The notes under the pieces were generated by a model. It made no database searches. It was not told the DNA's origin and saw nothing but the letters and a program-made list of their open reading frames with translations. A stretch of 64,000 bases of DNA from Lacibacter cauensis (GTDB lineage Bacteria > Bacteroidota > Bacteroidia > Chitinophagales > Chitinophagaceae): assembly GCF_007830055.1 (NCBI RefSeq), contig NZ_VLLE01000002.1, positions 817,953-881,952 on the forward strand, in the 5' to 3' direction. Made by a program: the position numbers and the translations under genes. Position 1 is the stretch's first letter, and each line of letters begins with the position of its first letter. Below, piece after piece: positions 12,807 to 23,003 of this stretch.

Positions 12807-15329
12807 TTATTTCCATTCTTTTGCACGCTTTTGTTCACGCATGGGATCAAATACAACCGTTGGATCTTTTTGTTCCGGTGCATTGACGAAGTGCGTAAAG
12901 CGTTTGCGTAACTCAGGTGTTTCAATAGCCGCTTTCCATTCGCACTCGTAGCTGTTTACATGATTTTCCATGGCTGCTTCCCACTCAGCATTCATGCCTA
13001 ATGCATCATGCACAACAACTGAACGCAGGTAATCAATTCCTCCTTCCATTTTATTTAACCAGGTGGCTGTACGTGTTAACGGATCGGCTGTTTTTACATA
13101 GAACATTAAGAAGCGATCGAGATATTTCAAACAGGTTTCTTCATCAATATCCGATGCAAGTAACAAAGCGTGTTGCGGCTTACTTCCGCCATTGCCACAT
13201 ACATACAGGTTCCAGCCTTTTTCTGTGGCGATAATACCAAAGTCTTTACTCTGTGCTTCCGCACATTCACGGATACAACCACTCACACCGCCTTTTAATT
13301 TATGCGGCGCACGCAAGCCACGGTAGCGTTCTTCTACCCGTATGGCAAAACTTACACTATCATGTAATCCGAAACGACACCAGGTACTACCCACACAACT
13401 TTTTACTGTACGTAAACTTTTACCGTATGCATGTCCGCTTTCAAAACCTGCTTCAATTAATTCTTCCCAGATATTTGGAAGATCGCTGAGGTGCGCACCA
13501 AACAGATCAATACGCTGCCCACCGGTAATTTTTGTATAGAGATTATACTTCTTTGCAACTTGTCCGATGACGATTAATTTATCCGGTGTAATTTCTCCAC
13601 CGGGGATACGTGGTACTACAGAATACGTTCCGCCTTTTTGAATATTTGCCAGGAAACGATCATTGCTATCCTGTGCCGTATCATTTCCTTTTTTCAATAT
13701 CACTTCGTTCCACAAACTGGCAAGGATCGATGCTACAGGAGGTTTGCATAATTCACAACCATCACCTTTACCAAGCATGTTCAACACATCGTCGTATGTA
13801 CGCAGTTCGTTCAGCTTAATTAAATCAAACAATTCCTGGCGACTGTAATCGAAGTGTTCGCACAATACATTACGAACAACTTTACCTGCTGCTTTCATAG
13901 TATGCAGCATCAGGTCTTTTACCATTGGTACACAACCTCCGCAACCTGTTCCGGCTTTGGTACATTTCTTAATGCCATCCACTGTTTCATATCCCAGTTT
14001 CACTGCATCACAAATTGAACCTTTTGTTACTGCTTCGCAACTGCAGATCACGGCGTCATCAGGTAAACTTGTAACACCTGCACCTGCATCGCCTTCGCCA
14101 CCTCTTGCACCAAGAATCACATCTTCTGTATTGGGAGGTAATACCACTTTGTTCTTGCAGGTTTGCAATAACATATTGTATTGCTCAGCATCGCCTACTA
14201 AAATTCCACCCAGCAATTGCTTGCCATCGGCACTTACATTTATACGTTTGTACACACCTTTCACGCTGTCATCAAACACAATACTTCTAACTCCATCACC
14301 ACTCACAAACGGATCACCAAAGCTGGCAACATCAACCCCAATCAGTTTGAGCTTGGTGCTCATATCAAAACCGGTAAATGAGCCCCCATCCCCTAAGGGG
14401 GTGTTATTGGCTATTGCAGTTAATTGATTTACCACAACAGTTGCCATTTCATAACCGGGAGCAACCAAGCCATAGATCATTCCTTTATGTAATGCACACT
14501 CACCAATAGCAAAAATGAAAGGGTCGGATGTTTGCAAGTTGTCGTTAACGGTTATTCCTCCACGAGGACCTACTTCCAATGAAGCAGCTCTTGCCAATTC
14601 ATCTCTTGGTTTAATACCCGCAGAAATGACCAGCATATCTACATCAAACGAACTATCATCAGAAAAACGCATGCCGGTAATCGCAGCATCGCCTTCAATG
14701 GCGGTTGTATTTTTTGATGTATGAATGGTTAGTCCAAGATCTTCCAGTTTCGAATGCAATAATTTCGAACCCGCATCATCAATCTGGCGTGGCATCAGGC
14801 GTGGCGCAAATTCAATCACCTGTGTATTCGTTACACCCAGGTCGAGCATTGCCTTTGCAGCTTCCAGTCCGAGTAAACCGCCACCGATCACCGCACCTTT
14901 CTTCGACTTCTTAGCCCAGCCGATCATCAGTTCAAGATCTTCAATTGTACGGTAGATGAATACACCTTCTTTTTCAACGCCGGGAATTGGAGGAACAAAG
15001 GCCGCAGAGCCAGTCGCCAAAACGAGGTAGTCGTAGCTTTCGGTAACACCTGCATGAGAGAACACAGTCTTCTTTTCACGATCAATGGAAATAACCGGAT
15101 CGGAAAGATGAAGTACAATCCCATTCTCACTGTACCATTCTTTCGAAGCGAGGGAAAGATCATCGGCAGACTTGCCTGCGAAATACTCGCTGAGATGCAC
15201 CCTGTCGTAAGCAGGTCTTACTTCTTCTCCGAAAACCACAATGGAAATATTAGCGGCTGTGTTTTTTGCTACAAGTTTTTCGCAGAACTTATAGCCCACC
15301 ATGCCATTACCTATGACTACCACTTTCAT
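12807..15329 (-). CDS. nirB: Nitrite reductase (NADH) large subunit NirB
   Basis: NirB reduces nitrite to ammonium with NADH, FAD, [4Fe-4S] and siroheme in the cytoplasm. The order is: FAD/NAD oxidoreductase (VVIGNGMVGYKFCE at the start, GAVIGGGLLGLEAAKAM near 150), BFD-type [2Fe-2S] domain (VICSCEAVTK...GTGCGGCVP), a second Cys pair (GDGCELCKPP), a ferredoxin-like half domain, then the siroheme/[4Fe-4S] motif CVGSTWC...GCIREC. The 840-residue length is normal. Residues 309-316 (NTPLGDGG) are encoded by a palindromic repeat and look like an in-frame insertion just before the conserved FDMSTKLKLIGVD. It is first in the nitrate operon and divergent from the siroheme methyltransferase gene. Confidence 0.96.
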   Translation of the reverse strand: MKVVVIGNGMVGYKFCEKLVAKNTAANISIVVFGEEVRPAYDRVHLSEYFAGKSADDLSLASKEWYSENGIVLHLSDPVISIDREKKTVFSHAGVTESYDYLVLATGSAAFVPPIPGVEKEGVFIYRTIEDLELMIGWAKKSKKGAVIGGGLLGLEAAKAMLDLGVTNTQVIEFAPRLMPRQIDDAGSKLLHSKLEDLGLTIHTSKNTTAIEGDAAITGMRFSDDSSFDVDMLVISAGIKPRDELARAASLEVGPRGGITVNDNLQTSDPFIFAIGECALHKGMIYGLVAPGYEMATVVVNQLTAIANNTPLGDGGSFTGFDMSTKLKLIGVDVASFGDPFVSGDGVRSIVFDDSVKGVYKRINVSADGKQLLGGILVGDAEQYNMLLQTCKNKVVLPPNTEDVILGARGGEGDAGAGVTSLPDDAVICSCEAVTKGSICDAVKLGYETVDGIKKCTKAGTGCGGCVPMVKDLMLHTMKAAGKVVRNVLCEHFDYSRQELFDLIKLNELRTYDDVLNMLGKGDGCELCKPPVASILASLWNEVILKKGNDTAQDSNDRFLANIQKGGTYSVVPRIPGGEITPDKLIVIGQVAKKYNLYTKITGGQRIDLFGAHLSDLPNIWEELIEAGFESGHAYGKSLRTVKSCVGSTWCRFGLHDSVSFAIRVEERYRGLRAPHKLKGGVSGCIRECAEAQSKDFGIIATEKGWNLYVCGNGGSKPQHALLLASDIDEETCLKYLDRFLMFYVKTADPLTRTATWLNKMEGGIDYLRSVVVHDALGMNAEWEAAMENHVNSYECEWKAAIETPELRKRFTHFVNAPEQKDPTVVFDPMREQKRAKEWK
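14383..14401 (-). repeat. In-frame palindromic repeat inside nirB (copy C)
   Basis: On the plus strand the bases read cccccatcccctaaggggg. In nirB sense, with one flanking base each side, they encode T-P-L-G-D-G-G; the preceding codon is N. The same element, orientation and frame occurs in the SDR gene at 22249-22267, and an intergenic copy lies at 22141-22160. The core self-pairs (CCCC..GGGG). I infer a mobile or spreading short palindrome tolerated in coding sequence. Confidence 0.75.
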
Positions 15330-15522
15330 GTTGTTACTGTTTTAAGTGAAACAATAATGGTAGCAAGCAATCGTATTACAATTTATATCATATAATATTT
15401 TTCTAACAGTTGGAACTATTTTTTGAAGCATTAAATGATTTCTGTCATGAAATTAAGGCTATAATTTGTAATTTTAATCAACAAAACATGATTATTATTA
15501 AATATAAATAAATGTAATTTGT
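15330..15522. promoter_or_regulatory. Divergent nirB / siroheme methyltransferase promoter region
   Basis: This AT-rich 193-bp region must hold both divergent promoters. A palindrome ATTTC-TGTCAT-GAAAT lies at 15438-15453, roughly midway, and has the half-site spacing of Crp/Fnr-family operators. The Crp/Fnr gene two genes away is the natural candidate regulator. No TTGATnnnnATCAA FNR box is present. The regulatory assignment is inference. Confidence 0.4.
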
Positions 15523-16296
15523 ATGAAATTGAGAAAATTGGTACTTATTGGAGCTGGACCAGGCGATCCTGAACTTATTACAATAAAAGCTATACGTTAT
15601 TTGAAACAAGCTGATGTGATCTTGTATGACGCCTTGGCGAACGAAGAACTTTTGAACTATGCTGCCCAAGGGTGCATCACCCGTTTTGTTGGTAAACGCT
15701 ACGGTTGCCATGCCCTTTCGCAGGAAGAGATCAATTCACTTATTGTAGAATACAGCCGGCAATATTGCACAATTGTACGTTTAAAAGGAGGCGACCCCTT
15801 TGTTTTTGGCCGTGCGCAGGAAGAAATTGAAACAGCCCGTGCAGCGGGAATAAAGGTTGAAGTGATTCCGGGTATTTCCAGTGCACTGGCAGTTCCAGCC
15901 ACACAACTGATTCCTCTCACCTGCCGTGGCATAAATGAAAGCTTTTGGATAACTACCGGTACTACAAAAACGGGCGAAATATCAATAGATATAAAATGGG
16001 CGGCTCAGTCGAGTGCAACTGTGATCATTTTAATGGCCATGAGCAAGCTTGAAGCGATCATGGAAATTTTCAGCAGCTATGGAAAAGAACATACTCCGGT
16101 TGCGATTATACAGAACGGTACTACAAAGGATGAAAAGATGATTGCAGGAACAGTAAAAGATATTTTCTTTCGGGCATCTGCAGCAAACATCAGCAACCCG
16201 GCTATAATTGTTGTGGGCGAAGTGGTGAACCTGCACCCGTCAATGATCACACAAGCAATTGCTACACAAACACAGGGACAATTACAGCCCAGGTAA
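15523..16296 (+). CDS. cobA: Uroporphyrinogen-III C-methyltransferase (SUMT), siroheme synthesis
   Basis: The enzyme methylates uroporphyrinogen III twice with SAM to give precorrin-2, the precursor of siroheme, NirB's cofactor. The N-terminal LVLIGAGPGDPELITIKAIR and the middle VRLKGGDPFVFGRAQEE are the two signature motifs of SUMT. The length of 257 residues equals the single-domain enzyme, without the CysG dehydrogenase/ferrochelatase part. It is divergent from nirB, which supports a role in assimilatory nitrite reduction rather than cobalamin synthesis. Confidence 0.95.
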   Translation: MKLRKLVLIGAGPGDPELITIKAIRYLKQADVILYDALANEELLNYAAQGCITRFVGKRYGCHALSQEEINSLIVEYSRQYCTIVRLKGGDPFVFGRAQEEIETARAAGIKVEVIPGISSALAVPATQLIPLTCRGINESFWITTGTTKTGEISIDIKWAAQSSATVIILMAMSKLEAIMEIFSSYGKEHTPVAIIQNGTTKDEKMIAGTVKDIFFRASAANISNPAIIVVGEVVNLHPSMITQAIATQTQGQLQPR

Positions 16297-16359
16297 TCTT
16301 TCTAACCTACTCAAACATTGTTTGCCGTTACTTTGCAGCTGCAAACTCGTAAAACGGCC

Positions 16360-17049
16360 ATGAAGCAAAACAAGAAAAACTGTGACCTGAAAAGCTGCAC
16401 CATGTGCATACAATGCCAACACGACTGGCTGCCTGCACTGGATGTTAACCGCAAAAGTTTTCATTTTAAAAAAGGAGAGCAATTATTTACCGAAGGCGAA
16501 GAAGTAAAAGGAATGTATTTCGTTTCGAAAGGACTTGTAAAAGTGCACAAGCGCTGGGGGAATGAGAAAGAATTGATTTTGCGTATTGCAAAAGACGGCG
16601 ATATCGTTGGGCATCGTGGCTTGGGCGATGATGCCTTCTATCCTGTATCCGGAACAGCTATGGAGCCAACCGATGTTTGTTATATTGATCTTCCATTCTT
16701 TAATAGTACGTTGCGCACCAATCCGGATTTTCAATACAACTTATTAATGTTTTTTGCAGCCGAATTAAAAGAGTCGGAGAAACGAATGCGTAACCTGGCA
16801 CATATGAATGTAAAGGGACGTATCGCCAATGCCTTGATTTACCTGCAAAACAAATTTGGCAAAGACAGTGACGGTTATATTAATCTTTCGATAAGCCGGC
16901 AGGATCTTGCATCGTACACCGGTACAACCTACGAGTCGCTCTTTCGGATTATGAATGAGCTGATGGAGGAAAAAGCGATTATAACTGATGGTAAGAAAAC
17001 AAAAGTGCTGAATGAAAAATTATTAGCGAAACACATGGCGCAGGAATAA
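16360..17049 (+). CDS. Crp/Fnr-family transcriptional regulator with N-terminal cysteine cluster
   Basis: From the ATG at 16360 the 229-residue protein starts with C8-x4-C13-x2-C16-x2-C19 (CDLKSCTMCIQC). A cyclic-nucleotide-binding-fold domain (FKKGEQLFTEGEEVKGMYFV), a long dimer helix and a winged helix follow; the recognition helix is near SRQDLASYTGTTYESLFRIM. E and R of the FNR-type ExxxR pattern are kept. The cysteines could bind an Fe-S cluster for O2 or NO sensing, as in FNR, although the spacing differs from E. coli FNR. Its place beside the nitrite/siroheme genes suggests control of nitrate assimilation. A TTACTTTG box at 16328-16335 could be its -7 element. Confidence 0.85.
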   Translation: MKQNKKNCDLKSCTMCIQCQHDWLPALDVNRKSFHFKKGEQLFTEGEEVKGMYFVSKGLVKVHKRWGNEKELILRIAKDGDIVGHRGLGDDAFYPVSGTAMEPTDVCYIDLPFFNSTLRTNPDFQYNLLMFFAAELKESEKRMRNLAHMNVKGRIANALIYLQNKFGKDSDGYINLSISRQDLASYTGTTYESLFRIMNELMEEKAIITDGKKTKVLNEKLLAKHMAQE

Positions 17050-17051
17050 AG

Positions 17052-17082
17052 AAAGCCGGTTCGTAAGAGCCGGCTTTTGTTT
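17052..17082. terminator. Bidirectional intrinsic terminator between the Crp/Fnr gene and uxuA
   Basis: AAAGCCGG (17052-17059) pairs with CCGGCTTT (17070-17077) around a ten-base loop, followed by TTTTGTTTTT on the plus strand. The converging genes end on both sides, so it can serve both. Confidence 0.8.
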
Positions 17083-18255
17083 TTATTGCTGATACAGCAT
17101 TTTAAATAAGGCATACTCAACACCCCGTAATTCTGCTAATCCTTTTAATCGGCCAATCGCCGAATAACCGGGATAGGTTTTCTTCTTCAGATCATCCAGC
17201 ATCTGATGCCCATGATCAGGTCGCATCGGTAATGAAATATTGCGGCGATGTTGTATCGAGAGTACTTCTTTAATTACTTCGTACATATCTGTATCGCCAG
17301 CCAGGTGATCGGCTTCAAAGAAATTCCCTTCTGCATCCCGCTTGGTATTACGCAGATGAAGAAAGTGTACATGGTCGCCAAAGCGTTTCAGCATAGCAGG
17401 CACATTGTTATCGGCCCTTGCACCAAACGAACCTGTACAAAAACAAAAACCATTCGCTGCTGAAGGCACAGCTTCCAGCAAATCGGCAGCATCTTGTTCT
17501 GTACTCATAATACGTGGCAGTCCCAATACAGGATAGGGAGGATCGTCTGGATGAATCGCCATCTTTAATCCACATTCTTCAGCAACAGGCACCACTTCTT
17601 TTAAAAAGTAAAACAGATGCTCTTTTAATTTAGCAGCATCAATACCCTGGTATTTTTCCAGCTCAGTTAACACCTGTTCAGGAGTAAATGCATCATCGCT
17701 TCCGGGCAATCCCAGCATCATATTATTGAATAAAAAAGTACGCTCCTCTTCACTCATTGCATCATAGCGTTCTTTTGCACGTACAATTTCGTTCACGTCA
17801 TATTCCGCATCAGCTTCCGGACGTTTTAATAAAAACAAATCGAACACCACATAATCAATACGATTGAAGTATAGTGCCGTACTGCCATCTTCTAATTGAT
17901 AATACACATTGGTACGCAGCCAGTCAAGCACCGGCATAAAATTGTAGGTTACCACTTTTAAACCACAGGCAGCTACGTTGCGTAAACTTGCTTTGTAGTT
18001 TTCTATATGGTAGAGATAATTACCAGACTGTCGTTTAATATCATCGCTTACAGGCAGACTTTCAATTACCGTCCAGGTCATGCCTGCATCTTCGATCATT
18101 TTTTTACGCAATAGAATTTCATCTGAAGTCCAGATATCTCCAACAGGAATATGATGAAGAGCTGTAACAACACCGGCACAGCCTGCCTGTCTTATATCTG
18201 CGAGGCTCACCGGATCGTTAGGTCCGTACCAGCGCATGGTTTGATGCATCAACAT
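17083..18255 (-). CDS. uxuA: Mannonate dehydratase UxuA
   Basis: UxuA dehydrates D-mannonate to 2-keto-3-deoxygluconate in the glucuronate branch of hexuronate breakdown. The 390-residue protein opens with MRWYGPNDPVSLADIRQAG and keeps the family metal-site region (MAIHPDDPPYPVLGLPRI, FCTGSFGARADNNVP, MRPDHGHQM). Its substrate would come from glucuronic acid freed from xylan by GH67/GH115 in the neighbouring cluster, after isomerisation (UxaC, not seen) and reduction. It is divergent from the LacI-family regulator gene, and a candidate operator overlaps its promoter. Confidence 0.96.
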   Translation of the reverse strand: MLMHQTMRWYGPNDPVSLADIRQAGCAGVVTALHHIPVGDIWTSDEILLRKKMIEDAGMTWTVIESLPVSDDIKRQSGNYLYHIENYKASLRNVAACGLKVVTYNFMPVLDWLRTNVYYQLEDGSTALYFNRIDYVVFDLFLLKRPEADAEYDVNEIVRAKERYDAMSEEERTFLFNNMMLGLPGSDDAFTPEQVLTELEKYQGIDAAKLKEHLFYFLKEVVPVAEECGLKMAIHPDDPPYPVLGLPRIMSTEQDAADLLEAVPSAANGFCFCTGSFGARADNNVPAMLKRFGDHVHFLHLRNTKRDAEGNFFEADHLAGDTDMYEVIKEVLSIQHRRNISLPMRPDHGHQMLDDLKKKTYPGYSAIGRLKGLAELRGVEYALFKMLYQQ

Positions 18256-18406
18256 AATTTCAATTTTAGTAAAGCTAGCTTACAAACAATAAACGGGCCG
18301 TGGTTTTCTTTGTTGTTGACAACCAGCGAAGTGGAGGGAACTAAGTTTGTCATTAAAATACCACCGAAAGCTGTTTGCAACAGAAACAAAACGCCTGCCT
18401 TTTTTG

Positions 18407-18436
18407 TAAAGATAAAGTCATTAGGTTTTATTGCAA
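18407..18436 (-). promoter_or_regulatory. Candidate uxuA promoter (Bacteroidota type)
   Basis: In minus-strand sense, TTG (18436-18434) and TATCTTTA (18414-18407) are 19 bp apart, matching the Bacteroidota -33 TTTG / -7 TAnnTTTG pattern with small deviations. The TTG lies inside the operator-like palindrome at 18432-18445, so repressor binding would block it. Confidence 0.5.
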
Positions 18437-18445
18437 TCGGTTGCA
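18432..18445. promoter_or_regulatory. LacI-type operator candidate 1 (TGCAATCGGTTGCA)
   Basis: The 14-bp palindrome TGCAA-TCGG-TTGCA is characteristic of LacI-family operators with a central CG. The reverse complement of site 2 differs at one base. It covers the -33 element of the likely uxuA promoter. Confidence 0.6.
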
Positions 18446-18646
18446 GAAAATTACAGGAAAATGGCTGCATTTTTAACCAATTGCAGGCCTAACAACCAAG
18501 GCAAACTATTATGTCCATTTCTTTTTGTCAGCATTGATTTTTTGCAAAACGAAAGCCCTCAAGAATGAAAAAGTAACAAATGCTAGTCAAAAAACAGCAG
18601 TAAATACAGTTTCCTTCAATCGCAACTACTGCACCACTCAAAAAAA

Positions 18647-18660
18647 TGCAACCGATTACA
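18647..18660. promoter_or_regulatory. LacI-type operator candidate 2 (TGCAACCGATTACA)
   Basis: The reverse complement is TGTAATCGGTTGCA, one base from site 1. It ends 20 bp upstream of TATCTTAG (18681-18688), a likely -7 element for the LacI-family gene. It is thus placed over the -33 zone, as site 1 is for uxuA. Confidence 0.6.
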
Positions 18661-18680
18661 TTTTTTGATTAAAAAACTAC

Positions 18681-18688
18681 TATCTTAG
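18681..18688 (+). promoter_or_regulatory. Candidate -7 element of the LacI-family regulator gene
   Basis: TATCTTAG matches the Bacteroidota TAnnTTTG pattern at all fixed positions but one. A TTTG at 18664-18667 is closer than the usual spacing, so the -33 element is uncertain. The implied 5' leader is about 260 bases. Confidence 0.35.
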
Positions 18689-18952
18689 GCTTTTAAACGA
18701 AGCTTGTTTTTATTTCATGCGTCACCATTCTACTTTCTTAAGCCCAGATTGCAGGTTTACCGACTTGTACAATTCAAATTGCAGAAGTGCTGTGCTCAAT
18801 GAAAGGACAGCTGAATTCCTATCCTTTTCTGAAAAAATCGTTTTTCAGTTTTTACCATATCGGCCTTCTAATCAGGCTGTATTTAATTCAAAACGAACCA
18901 TGCTACCCTGCACGATATATTTACTGCAGCAGAGAAACAAAGCAGAACTAAA

Positions 18953-19981
18953 ATGAAAGAAAAAAAAGAAGTTACCATTTATGATATTGCACAGTTGCTG
19001 GATCTTTCCACTGCAACAGTTAGCCGTGCATTACAGGATCATCCTGCAATTAATAAAAATACCAAGAAGAAAATACAGGATACTGCAAAAGAAATGGGTT
19101 ATCGCCATAACAATTTTGCAAGTAATCTCCGTAAACAGAAAACCAACACCATTGGTATTATTGTGCATGAACTGAACAGTAACTTTATTACTTCTGTTCT
19201 TGCAGGTATTGAAAAGATAAGCACCGAAGCCGGTTACGATTTAATTATCACACACTCATCTGAAAGTTATAAAAAAGAAGCAGCGAACGTTCTCAACTTA
19301 TTTCACAAACGTGTAGACGGTATTATTGCTTCACTATCGTTTGATACAAAAGGACTCGATCATTTTCAACCGTTCTTCGATAAAAACATTCCGGTTATTT
19401 TCTTCGATCGTGTGGAAGAAAATTCTGATAACGCCAAAGTGGTGATTGATAACTACAAAAACGGTTACCAGGCAACACAGCATTTAATTGAGCAAGGCAG
19501 CAAGCGCATTGTAATTGTTACAGCCAACCTTAACCGTAACGTATATGCTCAACGTTTCAAAGGATATAAAGATGCCCTGTTCGATAACAATATTGCATTT
19601 GATGAAAACCTTGTACTGATAAAAGACCTCAGTGAAAAATGCGGACGGGAAGCTGCCGAACAAATATTGGCAATGAACCCCATGCCCGATGCTGCATTTA
19701 TTACCAACGATTTCTCTGCTGCGGTTTGCATGCAAACGTTGAAGGAACATGGAATACGTATACCGGAAGAAATTGCCATTGTAGGTTTCAACAACGATGC
19801 CATCAGTAAAATTGTGGAACCGCAATTAACCACAATTAACTATCCCGGTATTGATATTGGTGAGATTGCTGCACGTAACCTTATTGCGCATTTGAAAGGC
19901 GATGTAAACATTACGCAAACCAATACCATTATTGTAAAATCAGATTTAATTGTCCGTAAATCATCCTTGCGTAAAGGATAA
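18953..19981 (+). CDS. LacI-family transcriptional regulator of the xylan/glucuronate locus
   Basis: The 342-residue protein has a LacI helix-turn-helix at the N-terminus (VTIYDIAQLLDLSTATVSRALQDH) with the hinge region after it. A periplasmic-binding-protein-like sensor domain (TIGIIVHELNSNFITSVLAG; VIFFDRVEENSDNAKVVIDN) completes it. It is divergent from uxuA and directly upstream of the GH67 gene. The two operator-like palindromes nearby suggest autoregulation and control of uxuA and the glycoside hydrolase genes. The effector is probably a xylan- or glucuronate-derived sugar or sugar acid, by context only. Confidence 0.93.
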   Translation: MKEKKEVTIYDIAQLLDLSTATVSRALQDHPAINKNTKKKIQDTAKEMGYRHNNFASNLRKQKTNTIGIIVHELNSNFITSVLAGIEKISTEAGYDLIITHSSESYKKEAANVLNLFHKRVDGIIASLSFDTKGLDHFQPFFDKNIPVIFFDRVEENSDNAKVVIDNYKNGYQATQHLIEQGSKRIVIVTANLNRNVYAQRFKGYKDALFDNNIAFDENLVLIKDLSEKCGREAAEQILAMNPMPDAAFITNDFSAAVCMQTLKEHGIRIPEEIAIVGFNNDAISKIVEPQLTTINYPGIDIGEIAARNLIAHLKGDVNITQTNTIIVKSDLIVRKSSLRKG

Positions 19982-20000
19982 TGTTGTAACGATTACTTAC

Positions 20001-22139
20001 ATGAAGAAATTAAACCTATTGCTGCTGTTTGTGCTTGCCTGCTTTTGTGTACAGGCAGAAAATGGCTACGACTTATGGTTGCGCTATCTACCTGTTAGTA
20101 ACCCGGTGTTGCTGCAGCAATACAAACAACAACTGGTATCGCCGGTAGTGCTTGGCTCCTCTTCTACTGTGTCTGTCATCCGTACAGAATTAGCATCAGC
20201 ATTGAAAGGATTAACAGGAAACGCATATACTGTATCTTCTTCCCTTACGTCAACAAATACATTGATTATCGGTAAAGCTGATGCATCAAAAATCCTGTCA
20301 CCACTTGTAACAAAAGAAGAACTAAAGCAACTTGGCGAAGAAGGGTTCATACTAAAAGCAAAGCCCGGTAAAACGATCATTACGGGCAATACTGATGTGG
20401 CTGTACTCTACGGCCTTTTTCATTACCTGCGGTTAATGCAAAGCAATCAGCCAATCACAAATCTCAATATTATTTCTGTACCGAAACTGAAGTTGCGGAT
20501 GCTGAATCATTGGGATAATATGAACCGTACAGTTGAGCGGGGCTATGCAGGTTTTTCGATCTGGGACTGGCATCGACTCCCCGGTTTTATCGATCAACGT
20601 TATATTGATTATGCAAGAGCCAATGCTTCCATTGGAATTAATGCTGTTACACTTACCAATGTAAATGCCAATGCACTTATTCTTACTCCTGCTTACCTGG
20701 AGAAAGTAAAAGCATTGGCAGATGTGTTTCGCCCCTACGGCATCAAAGTATTTTTAACGGCACGCTTCAGTGCACCGATAGAACTTGCACGGTTAAAAAC
20801 TGCGGATCCTTTGAATGAAGACGTAAAGGCATGGTGGAATAATAAAGCCAATGAAATCTATTCGTACATCCCCGACTTTGGTGGCTTTTTGGTAAAAGCA
20901 AACAGCGAAGGGCAACCGGGGCCGCAGGATTATAAGCGTACACATGCAGAAGGTGCCAATATGTTGGCCAATGCAGTTGCGCCACACAAAGGAATTGTCA
21001 TCTGGCGTGCATTTGTGTATGCTGCAGAAAATCCGGTTGACAGGCATAAGCAGGCTTATGATGATTTTGTTCCGCTCGATGGAAAGTTCAATGACAATGT
21101 GATGGTGCAGGTAAAGAACGGCGCTATTGATTTTATGCCCCGTGAACCGTTTCATCCGTTGTTTGGTGCCATGCCGAAAACGCCGTTGATGATGGAGTTT
21201 CAGGTAACACAGGAATATTTAGGACAGGCAACCAACTGGGTATTTCTTGCGCCGTTATTTAAAGAGGTGTTAGATGCAGATACATACGCCAAAGGCAAAA
21301 ACAGTACTGTAGCGAAAGTAATTGATGGCAGTTTAGACAATCATGCACTGAATGGTATGACCGGTGTTGCCAACATTGGCACCGATATCAACTGGTGTGG
21401 CCATCCAATGGCACAAGCGAATTGGTATGCACTTGGTCGTCTTGCATGGAATTATAATTTGAGCAGTGATGCAATTGCTGAAGAATGGTTGCGTATGACG
21501 TATAGTAACGATGCAGCATTTGTACAATCAACCAAACAGATCATGTTACGCAGCCGTGAAATTATGGTTGATTATATGAACCCCATTGGTCTGCACCATA
21601 TAATGGCAACAGGTCATCACTACGGCCCCGGCCCATGGGTAAGTAACCTCAATCGCCCTGAGTGGAATCCTGTTTACTATCATAAAGCTGACAGCATTGG
21701 TATTGGTTTCAACCGCACATCAACAGGAAGCAAAGCAATTGAACAATATTTTCCGGAAGTAAGAAAGCAATGGGAAAACATTGCAACATGCGATGAAAAA
21801 TACCTGCTGTGGTTTCATCATGCTTCGTGGAATCATACCATGAAAAGTGGCCGCAGTTTATGGAATGAATTATGCTATAAATACAATACAGGTGTAGATA
21901 GCGTGAAATGGATGCAGCGTGAATGGCAAAAGCAACAAACAAAAGTTGATGCGCAGCGCTTCAAAGAAGTAAGCATGTTACTGAATGTACAACTAGAAGA
22001 AGCAAAATGGTGGCGCAATGCATGCTTGTTATACTTCCAGACATTTTCGAAACAACCGATTCCATCGAATTACGAACAACCCGATAAAACATTAGACTAT
22101 TATAAAAGTTTACGTTTCCCGTTTGCACCGGGCAACTAA
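20001..22139 (+). CDS. aguA: Alpha-glucuronidase, GH67
   Basis: GH67 removes 4-O-methyl-glucuronic acid from the non-reducing-end xylose of short aldouronic acids. Translated from the ATG at 20001 the protein has a Sec signal (MKKLNLLLLFVLACFCVQAE) and is 712 residues, normal for the family. It contains MLNHWDNMNRTVERGYAG, the general-acid region VKANSEGQPGPQ, and NGAIDFMPREPFHPLFG with the conserved Asp/Glu residues. The signal suggests periplasmic action on imported oligosaccharides. An in-frame ATG at 19950 overlaps the regulator gene and was rejected because it would bury the signal peptide. Confidence 0.95.
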   Translation: MKKLNLLLLFVLACFCVQAENGYDLWLRYLPVSNPVLLQQYKQQLVSPVVLGSSSTVSVIRTELASALKGLTGNAYTVSSSLTSTNTLIIGKADASKILSPLVTKEELKQLGEEGFILKAKPGKTIITGNTDVAVLYGLFHYLRLMQSNQPITNLNIISVPKLKLRMLNHWDNMNRTVERGYAGFSIWDWHRLPGFIDQRYIDYARANASIGINAVTLTNVNANALILTPAYLEKVKALADVFRPYGIKVFLTARFSAPIELARLKTADPLNEDVKAWWNNKANEIYSYIPDFGGFLVKANSEGQPGPQDYKRTHAEGANMLANAVAPHKGIVIWRAFVYAAENPVDRHKQAYDDFVPLDGKFNDNVMVQVKNGAIDFMPREPFHPLFGAMPKTPLMMEFQVTQEYLGQATNWVFLAPLFKEVLDADTYAKGKNSTVAKVIDGSLDNHALNGMTGVANIGTDINWCGHPMAQANWYALGRLAWNYNLSSDAIAEEWLRMTYSNDAAFVQSTKQIMLRSREIMVDYMNPIGLHHIMATGHHYGPGPWVSNLNRPEWNPVYYHKADSIGIGFNRTSTGSKAIEQYFPEVRKQWENIATCDEKYLLWFHHASWNHTMKSGRSLWNELCYKYNTGVDSVKWMQREWQKQQTKVDAQRFKEVSMLLNVQLEEAKWWRNACLLYFQTFSKQPIPSNYEQPDKTLDYYKSLRFPFAPGN

Positions 22140-22140
22140 A

Positions 22141-22160
22141 CCCCTATCCCCTGAAGGGGG
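22141..22160 (+). repeat. Intergenic copy of the palindromic repeat (copy A)
   Basis: cccctatcccctgaaggggg begins one base after the GH67 stop codon. It is the inverted complement of copy B in the start of the SDR gene (18 of 19 bases can pair), and the same family as copy C in nirB. Confidence 0.75.
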
Positions 22161-22232
22161 ATAAGAACTGCATTGTTCTAATAGTCTGACTCAATGAATT
22201 AATATTATTGTTTAACAAAACAAATAAAATAA

Positions 22233-23003
22233 ATGAGTAATCAAAACACCCCTTCAGGGGATGGGGGCACAAAAACAGCAATTGTAACAGGTGGCGGATC
22301 AGGACTTGGTCTTGCAATTGCCAAAGCATTCACAGCAAATAATATTAAAACCATTATTGTTGGTCGTGATGAAGAAAAACTAAAAACAGCAGTTGCAGAA
22401 TTAGGTGAAAATGGTTTTTATAAAGTTTGTGATCTGAGTAATTTATCAACCATTCCTGCATTGATCGAAAATATTCTGGCGGAATTTGGCAAGATTGATA
22501 TACTGGTGAACAATGCAGGCATTAATCAAAAGAAAGTATTTGAAGAAGTAACCGATGAAGAATTTCAACGCATCATCACAACAAATGTAACGGCTGTGTT
22601 CAGCATCAGTCGTGAAGTGGTGAAAGATATGTTGAAACGGAATAGCGGTTGCATTATCAACATCAGTTCCATGGCGGCACAATATGGCTTGCCCAAAGTA
22701 ATTGCCTACAGTGCAAGTAAAACGGCCATAGATGGTATGACGAGAGCCATGGCCGTTGAACTTAGTCCAAACGGTATTCGTGTAAACGCTATTGCACCAG
22801 GTTTCATCTATAGTGCAATGACGGAAAAGGCATTGAACAGCGATCCTGAACGCAAAGCAAAAGTATTTAACCGTACACCCATGGGCTACATGGGTCAACC
22901 GGAAGATATTGGTGCGGCTGCGTTATACTTAGCAAGTGATGGCGCTAAGTATGTAACCGGTGTTGTACTGCCAGTTGATGGTGGTAACAGTATTGGTTTT
23001 TGA
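22233..23003 (+). CDS. SDR-family oxidoreductase, candidate fructuronate reductase or gluconate 5-dehydrogenase-like
   Basis: This classical short-chain dehydrogenase of 256 residues has TGGGSGLG (19-26) for NAD(P) binding, NNAGINQ, catalytic Y159-x3-K163 (YSASK) and a C-terminal GVVLPVDGGNSIGF. It lies between the two glucuronidase genes. Some bacteria, such as Bacillus, use an SDR as D-mannonate oxidoreductase; that would link glucuronate to UxuA here, as no other fructuronate reductase is seen. Residues 5-12 (NTPSGDGG) are encoded by a palindromic repeat that also occurs in nirB, giving the protein an extended N-terminus. Confidence 0.85.
   Translation: MSNQNTPSGDGGTKTAIVTGGGSGLGLAIAKAFTANNIKTIIVGRDEEKLKTAVAELGENGFYKVCDLSNLSTIPALIENILAEFGKIDILVNNAGINQKKVFEEVTDEEFQRIITTNVTAVFSISREVVKDMLKRNSGCIINISSMAAQYGLPKVIAYSASKTAIDGMTRAMAVELSPNGIRVNAIAPGFIYSAMTEKALNSDPERKAKVFNRTPMGYMGQPEDIGAAALYLASDGAKYVTGVVLPVDGGNSIGF
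22249..22267 (+). repeat. In-frame palindromic repeat at the start of the SDR gene (copy B)
   Basis: ccccttcaggggatggggg starts 16 bases after the first base of the ATG and encodes, with flanking bases, T-P-S-G-D-G-G. Same orientation and frame as copy C in nirB relative to coding sense. With copy A it could form a 19-bp stem whose loop contains the start codon at 22233. Confidence 0.75.

Follow-up and report, generated by a model that had tools for sequence, protein, structure and literature searches.

A short palindrome, CCCCTTYAGGGGWTGGGG, lies in frame in two unrelated protein genes of a 64,000-nt stretch of the Lacibacter cauensis genome (contig NZ_VLLE01000002.1, positions 817,953 to 881,952; hereafter the window). 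One copy is in nirB (14384-14401, minus strand; one mismatch) and the other in a short-chain dehydrogenase/reductase (SDR) gene (22249-22266, plus strand). We propose that the palindromes of the window are probably short derivatives of a homing-like element that encodes a DUF559 protein and has palindromic ends that are translated into peptide. We describe the copies, their association with DUF559 genes in related genomes, the nature and history of those genes, and the alternatives.

Palindromes in the window and the source genome

We scanned the window with the pattern CCCCTNNAGGGGNTGGGG, allowing up to 3 mismatches, and obtained four matches at three places (14383-14401 is scored twice by overlap). 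Shuffled versions of the window gave a mean of 0.40 matches, and none of 100 reached four. The original prediction held that nirB and the SDR gene share one palindrome in the same sense and frame; the pattern scan and the open reading frames (ORFs) bear this out, since read in gene sense the copies encode NNTPLGDGGS in NirB and NQNTPSGDGGT in the SDR protein. A third copy, predicted between genes near 22141-22160, was found at 22142-22159 on the minus strand, inverted relative to the SDR copy and with the G-rich tails of the two pointing outwards. Because the stem of the NirB copy is shorter, a hairpin finder requiring at least 5 pairs misses it, and the SDR-side pair is all that it picks up in the window. 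The features are as follows.

14382..14405, minus strand: nirB solo palindrome with G-rich tail, a net gain of 24 nt that encodes NTPLGDGG, with the exact insert ends placed by us
14384-14401, minus strand: palindrome core within the nirB solo; 8 residues beyond the NirB of the same-genus genome G083 (94% identical)
12807..15329, minus strand: nirB, host gene of the solo; Pfam domains Pyr_redox_2, Fer2_BFD and NIR_SIR
22141..22159, minus strand: left palindrome of a tails-outward pair, intergenic, with one tail mismatch
22249..22268, plus strand: right-hand member of the pair, in frame at the SDR N-terminus; NTPSGDGG, about 9 residues beyond homologues without the copy
22141..22268, unstranded: candidate mini-element, an inverted pair without DUF559 lying across the SDR start codon, oriented like DUF559 elements
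22233..23003, plus strand: SDR gene that hosts the right palindrome, assigned by ORF and Pfam

Further copies exist across the 4.95-Mb source genome, as the original prediction anticipated: a limit of 2 mismatches yields 27 places, among which 14 are exact, and a reversed control pattern yields none. Among the exact copies, four (L001, L010, L013 and L014) represent a single flank that is repeated close to contig ends; other copies lie inside a 926-aa open frame and close to the N-terminus of another frame of 300 aa. The exact core occurs in 41 of 147 genomes of the family, and the reversed control in none of the 147. A chance origin is thus rejected by the window shuffles and by the reversed controls in the source genome and the 147 genomes. 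Other palindrome types, CCCCTCCCGGGAGGGG and CCCCTTCAGGGGGCGGAG, are also present in the source genome (L018, L023, L019, L024-L026), and the CCCCTCCCGGGAGGGG type is similar to the termini of the second DUF559 gene of that genome, at C5:500516.

Palindromes often bracket DUF559 genes

In the source genome a DUF559 gene between OTC and ArgB is bracketed by two palindrome copies, and DUF559 matches occur in 75 of the 147 family genomes. We assembled a panel of 92 distinct DUF559 domains from 90 loci, made up of the stronger and earlier-listed matches. A C-rich palindrome lies within 300 bp of 78 of the 92 domains, compared with 6 of 27 loci of the REP-associated tyrosine transposase (RAYT; REP, repetitive extragenic palindrome) and 3 of 41 NirB or SDR loci, the last two counts leaving out 3 and 1 loci that overrun contig ends. 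The palindrome is found up to 300 bp upstream in 64/92 and up to 200 bp downstream in 64/92. By distance, palindromes peak at 50-100 bp upstream (43 of 91 domains) and at 0-50 bp downstream (40 of 92), and beyond 300 bp no bin exceeds 6 of 88. A further set of 80 named loci overlaps the panel in part, some loci coming from panel genomes; it is drawn mainly from Bacteroidota with other phyla represented, and most of its domain ends are approximate. It gave 27/79 at 50-100 bp upstream, 21/79 at 100-150 bp upstream and 33/80 at 0-50 bp downstream. The signal was weaker on viral contigs (13/80 at 50-100 bp upstream and 11/79 at 0-50 bp downstream); the minority of DUF559 genes there with palindromes close by (within L303-L382) suggests that phages may carry the element. 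GIY-YIG genes, considered as an alternative partner, were rejected: they show no peak, with at most 1 of 25 loci per bin within 400 bp (5 incomplete loci of 30 excluded).

The order within an element is tail-palindrome, DUF559, palindrome-tail, and the ends are inverted and matched. Among the 86 of 170 DUF559 domains that have both ends, the inverted-repeat similarity between the ends of the same element is 0.652, compared with 0.194 under permutation (sd 0.028; 500 permutations). The pair at 22142/22249 in the window has the orientation seen in DUF559 elements. DUF559 is encoded by 33 of the 41 palindrome-positive genomes compared with 42 of the 106 negative ones (p 8e-6, calculated without kinship correction).

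DUF559 is a predicted nuclease lodged in frame in enzymes

For 55 of the 92 panel domains, the open frame contains 200 aa or more in addition to DUF559. Pfam searches of 23 such ORFs identified as hosts LeuRS (at several sites), chorismate synthase, MetH (two domains), CinA, MetRS, adenine deaminase, methylmalonyl-CoA mutase, HsdR, an Eco57I-type methylase, a nucleotidyl transferase, ArgB and a His_biosynth protein that we take as HisF. The palindromes are translated through at both junctions in the examples inspected. We rejected inteins as an explanation, as no Hint or intein Pfam family was found at E 1e-5 in the 23 DUF559 ORFs. One LeuRS open frame contains a pair of DUF559 domains, which lie at different sites and each have palindromes of their own (L107, L109).

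The predicted structure of the DUF559 protein (predicted local distance difference test, pLDDT, 88.6) matches a Neisseria endonuclease-like protein (E 7e-7), the homing endonuclease I-Bth0305I (E 1.6e-4) and Vsr (prob 0.98, E ~0.03), and a profile search reaches I-Bth0305I by sequence (E 5e-6). We take I-Bth0305I to be of the EDxHD/Vsr type. We selected five acidic or histidine residues by conservation; 166 of 170 domains, and 81 of 83 with long frames, retain all of them. We conclude that DUF559 is, by prediction, a small nuclease of the Vsr/EDxHD type; the model and the searches both point to the nuclease fold of a homing family. A defence system was considered and rejected, with weak partial PADLOC matches alone (DpdF, E 6e-7 over ~55 residues; mREase_II; PDC-S69).

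Lineages largely follow host sites, with empty and scarred alleles

We labelled 68 of the 170 rows of a DUF559 tree by host site; the domain is short and many forks of this tree are weak. The 10 host sites need 14 changes on it, compared with 45.2 when labels are shuffled, and none of 200 shuffles was as low. One origin each fits HisF, ArgB, methylmalonyl-CoA mutase and MetRS. AroC, read in 30 of 144 matching genomes, carries the element in 4 cases. For two of these, the AroC gene of a same-genus partner retains a left- or right-end scar where DUF559 has been lost, and no scar was recognised in the other 24 of the 30 AroC loci. Lineages are thus tied to their sites and distributed patchily against empty alleles, except for adenine deaminase and LeuRS.

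ArgB was read in 30 of 124 matching genomes, and its junction is empty in G083. From the junction to the right palindrome, the N-terminal stretch of ArgB in the source genome is identical to G083 at 56 of 93 nt (60%), compared with 80-98% in 60-nt windows outside. The SDR tract at 22141..22268, which ends at the right palindrome, is instead 95-98% identical to G083 compared with mostly 72-85% alongside, and other windows in this 3.3-kb comparison also reach 92-97%. Both patterns fit a transfer of palindrome-bounded tracts, and neither proves it.

We propose the following route. The palindrome and its one-sided G-rich tail would be the terminal repeat of a mobile element encoding DUF559, which may recognise and move the palindromes. 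Many full elements lie in frame in or against conserved enzymes, with their ends and the nuclease translated within the host protein. DUF559 would cut or nick an empty allele or a similar site, and recombinational repair would then copy the element in, in a homing-like manner, with co-conversion of flanking host sequence. Inverted pairs and solos would be remnants after DUF559 loss, or products of abortive or ectopic copying, and the window would hold two such derivatives, the nirB solo and the SDR pair.

In-gene palindromes are insertions with a preferred frame

We compared filled and palindrome-free forms of four genes, in which the net gain is about 12-27 nt. NirB was read in the best 30 of 111 matching genomes, with G083 as the same-genus comparison. 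It is 8 residues longer in the source genome than in G083, at the lower end of the 8-10 residues originally estimated. Extra length at the palindrome loop is also found in six more of the 30 aligned proteins, one (G098) with a related palindrome and five with unrelated sequence, from which it follows that the NirB loop tolerates length change. For SDR, 10 of 12 loci taken were read (51 genomes matched). The copy is present in the source genome and in G083, and 7 of the 10 homologues lack it and start about 7-9 residues shorter. Alignment of homologues therefore identifies both in-gene copies of the window as insertions (8 residues in NirB, about 9 in SDR). Retention of the peptide without the DNA repeat, which the original prediction had set against insertion, was found in one SDR homologue, G091, where SPSGDGS is kept and the DNA palindrome is degraded; seven others are without the copy. 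We read the G091 peptide and the SDR copy shared with G083 as older insertions in decay. In the source genome the palindrome is also present in ThrC and ArgC. ThrC was searched in 25 relatives, 17 of which gave a match. Its palindrome is present in 4 of 14 same-genus genomes and absent from 10, the filled form gaining 5 residues with a few host residues replaced; one palindrome-free ThrC (G154) is extended by 3 residues and differs in sequence. ArgC extends 4 residues beyond that of G083, with replacement.

Reading frames were counted for 136 distinct type-A copies (up to 1 mismatch) in the loci collected, 65 of which have no open frame of at least 200 aa over them. A copy was scored as well inside such a frame when it lay at least 40 aa into it and at least 25 aa from its end. 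This sample is enriched in ArgB by our own queries and includes a few other palindrome types within one mismatch. Of 36 palindromes well inside frames, 24 read PxGDGG, 8 PFRGxG and 2 PLQGMG, all in sense, and 2 are antisense. The pattern-match loci alone (L001-L058) gave 8 of 11 in the PxGDGG frame and 10 of 11 in sense. The suggestion of selection for a frame that reads as a hydrophilic loop is thus upheld as to the preference; as to its cause, the bias is explained equally well by tolerance or by positive selection. At the ArgB loop before HGGG, copies occur in all three sense frames across genomes, which suggests repeated independent insertion. Solo palindromes are also seen at the same ArgB loops in different genera (L411, L404, L038, L388, L390).

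Points against the proposal and alternative explanations

Several observations weigh against derivation from a DUF559 element. There is no DUF559 gene in the 64,000-nt window, and G083 and 7 other palindrome-positive genomes have no DUF559 match. By our rule, both ends are found in only 50 of the 92 panel domains and neither in 14. End-type specificity is weak among 57 genomes, each with its DUF559 set partly typed: p is 0.09 for A-ended elements against A palindromes elsewhere and 0.016 for B-ended against B, and 1.0 and 0.18 in the cross comparisons. Clustering on the tree is uneven, with 7 changes for the site LeuRS1 and adenine deaminase not above shuffles, and vertical descent would also group host-site labels. 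Some hosts could retain DUF559 as a useful domain. Finally, the gains are not clean, as NirB, ThrC and ArgC lose a few host residues at the insertion, and no target duplication was seen by eye in filled compared with empty NirB and ThrC sites.

The palindromes could instead be REPs spread by a Y1 (HUH) transposase, with DUF559 incidental. Y1_Tnp is encoded in 107 of the 147 family genomes, tails-outward pairs look like REP dimers, and the RAYT loci with a C-rich palindrome, unsorted by type, exceed the level at NirB and SDR loci. However, neither of the two Y1_Tnp loci in the source genome is palindrome-flanked, RAYT loci show no sharp positional peak of palindromes, co-occurrence of RAYT with the palindrome is not significant (p 0.10), and 7 palindrome-positive genomes, one with 22 copies, have no RAYT match. 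We consider this explanation unlikely and reject RAYT as the mover on its unflanked loci, missing peak and non-significant co-occurrence, the 6 of 27 loci with a palindrome notwithstanding. One of the source-genome Y1 transposase genes is split between two frames (C1:527859-528119; L029, L060).

That solos exceed DUF559 copies in several genomes, and that palindrome-positive genomes without DUF559 exist, would also be expected if a DUF559 homing nuclease invaded palindromes spread by another agent, the palindrome being its target and not its end. Insertion into a tailed palindrome would, however, give two tails of like direction; those observed point outwards at both ends, as matched inverted repeats. 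Empty sites are moreover palindrome-free, both at the G083 ArgB junction and in most AroC genes read, and we regard this possibility as improbable. An independent in-frame element of the kind of the Rickettsia palindromic elements (RPEs), with an unknown mover and tolerated as a hydrophilic loop, as the original prediction saw it, fits the insertion and frame behaviour and leaves the DUF559 association unexplained, which makes it very improbable; the analogy holds for in-frame insertion in unrelated proteins, and had overlooked the DUF559 partner and the inverted pair at 22142/22249.

Implications and comparison with known systems

The DUF559 element may represent an undescribed class of selfish element, a claim to which we give even chances: a homing nuclease that has palindromic ends without stops, inserts itself in frame in conserved enzymes, is unspliced, rides as an extra domain and seeds translated solos. 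Our literature search, in which DUF559 papers were mostly judged by title and abstract opening, found no description of a palindrome-ended DUF559 element. If the proposal is true, the element would parallel REP/RAYT, with a Vsr-like nuclease as its basis. To our knowledge protein-coding palindromes have had no known mover, and a nuclease gene with matching ends would provide a testable one. Pfam lists the function of the DUF559 family as unknown, and the proposal would also suggest what part of this family does. LeuRS, chorismate synthase and like enzymes have open frames with a nuclease domain, and the natural filled, empty and scarred alleles form a ready test set for insertion tolerance.

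RPEs are palindromic DNA of ~150 bp found in frame in unrelated protein genes, as described in the parts of PMC10969869 consulted. The copies in NirB, SDR, ThrC and ArgC resemble them in being in-frame palindromes in unrelated genes; compared by description, they differ in their small net gain, in their Bacteroidota host family and in a nuclease gene that shares their ends. The Caulobacter DUF559 protein VsrA, a Vsr-like nuclease, is reported to be responsible for an SOS response in the consulted parts of PMC12907096, where the words homing and palindrome are absent; its Pfam domain is the one seen here. The likeness to I-Bth0305I lies in the fold, where it is among the nearest, and in DUF559 lineages that cluster by host site, whereas no intron or intein was found around DUF559, the ends are palindromic and the element appears to stay in the protein. 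As in miniature inverted-repeat transposable elements, the solos and the pair of the source genome carry the end sequence of a putatively autonomous element, the ArgB-linked DUF559 element; at the NirB and ThrC sites, where no duplication was seen, local host residues are replaced. REP elements are short palindromes with a one-sided tag, often in inverted pairs and some in genes (from the consulted parts of PMC3733652 and PMC6006769), and the elements described here share each of these traits. The REP foot tag GTAG/CGTC was not found in the copies read or in the tails of 86 elements, which have a G run instead, and the partner here is a Vsr-like nuclease in place of an HUH transposase.

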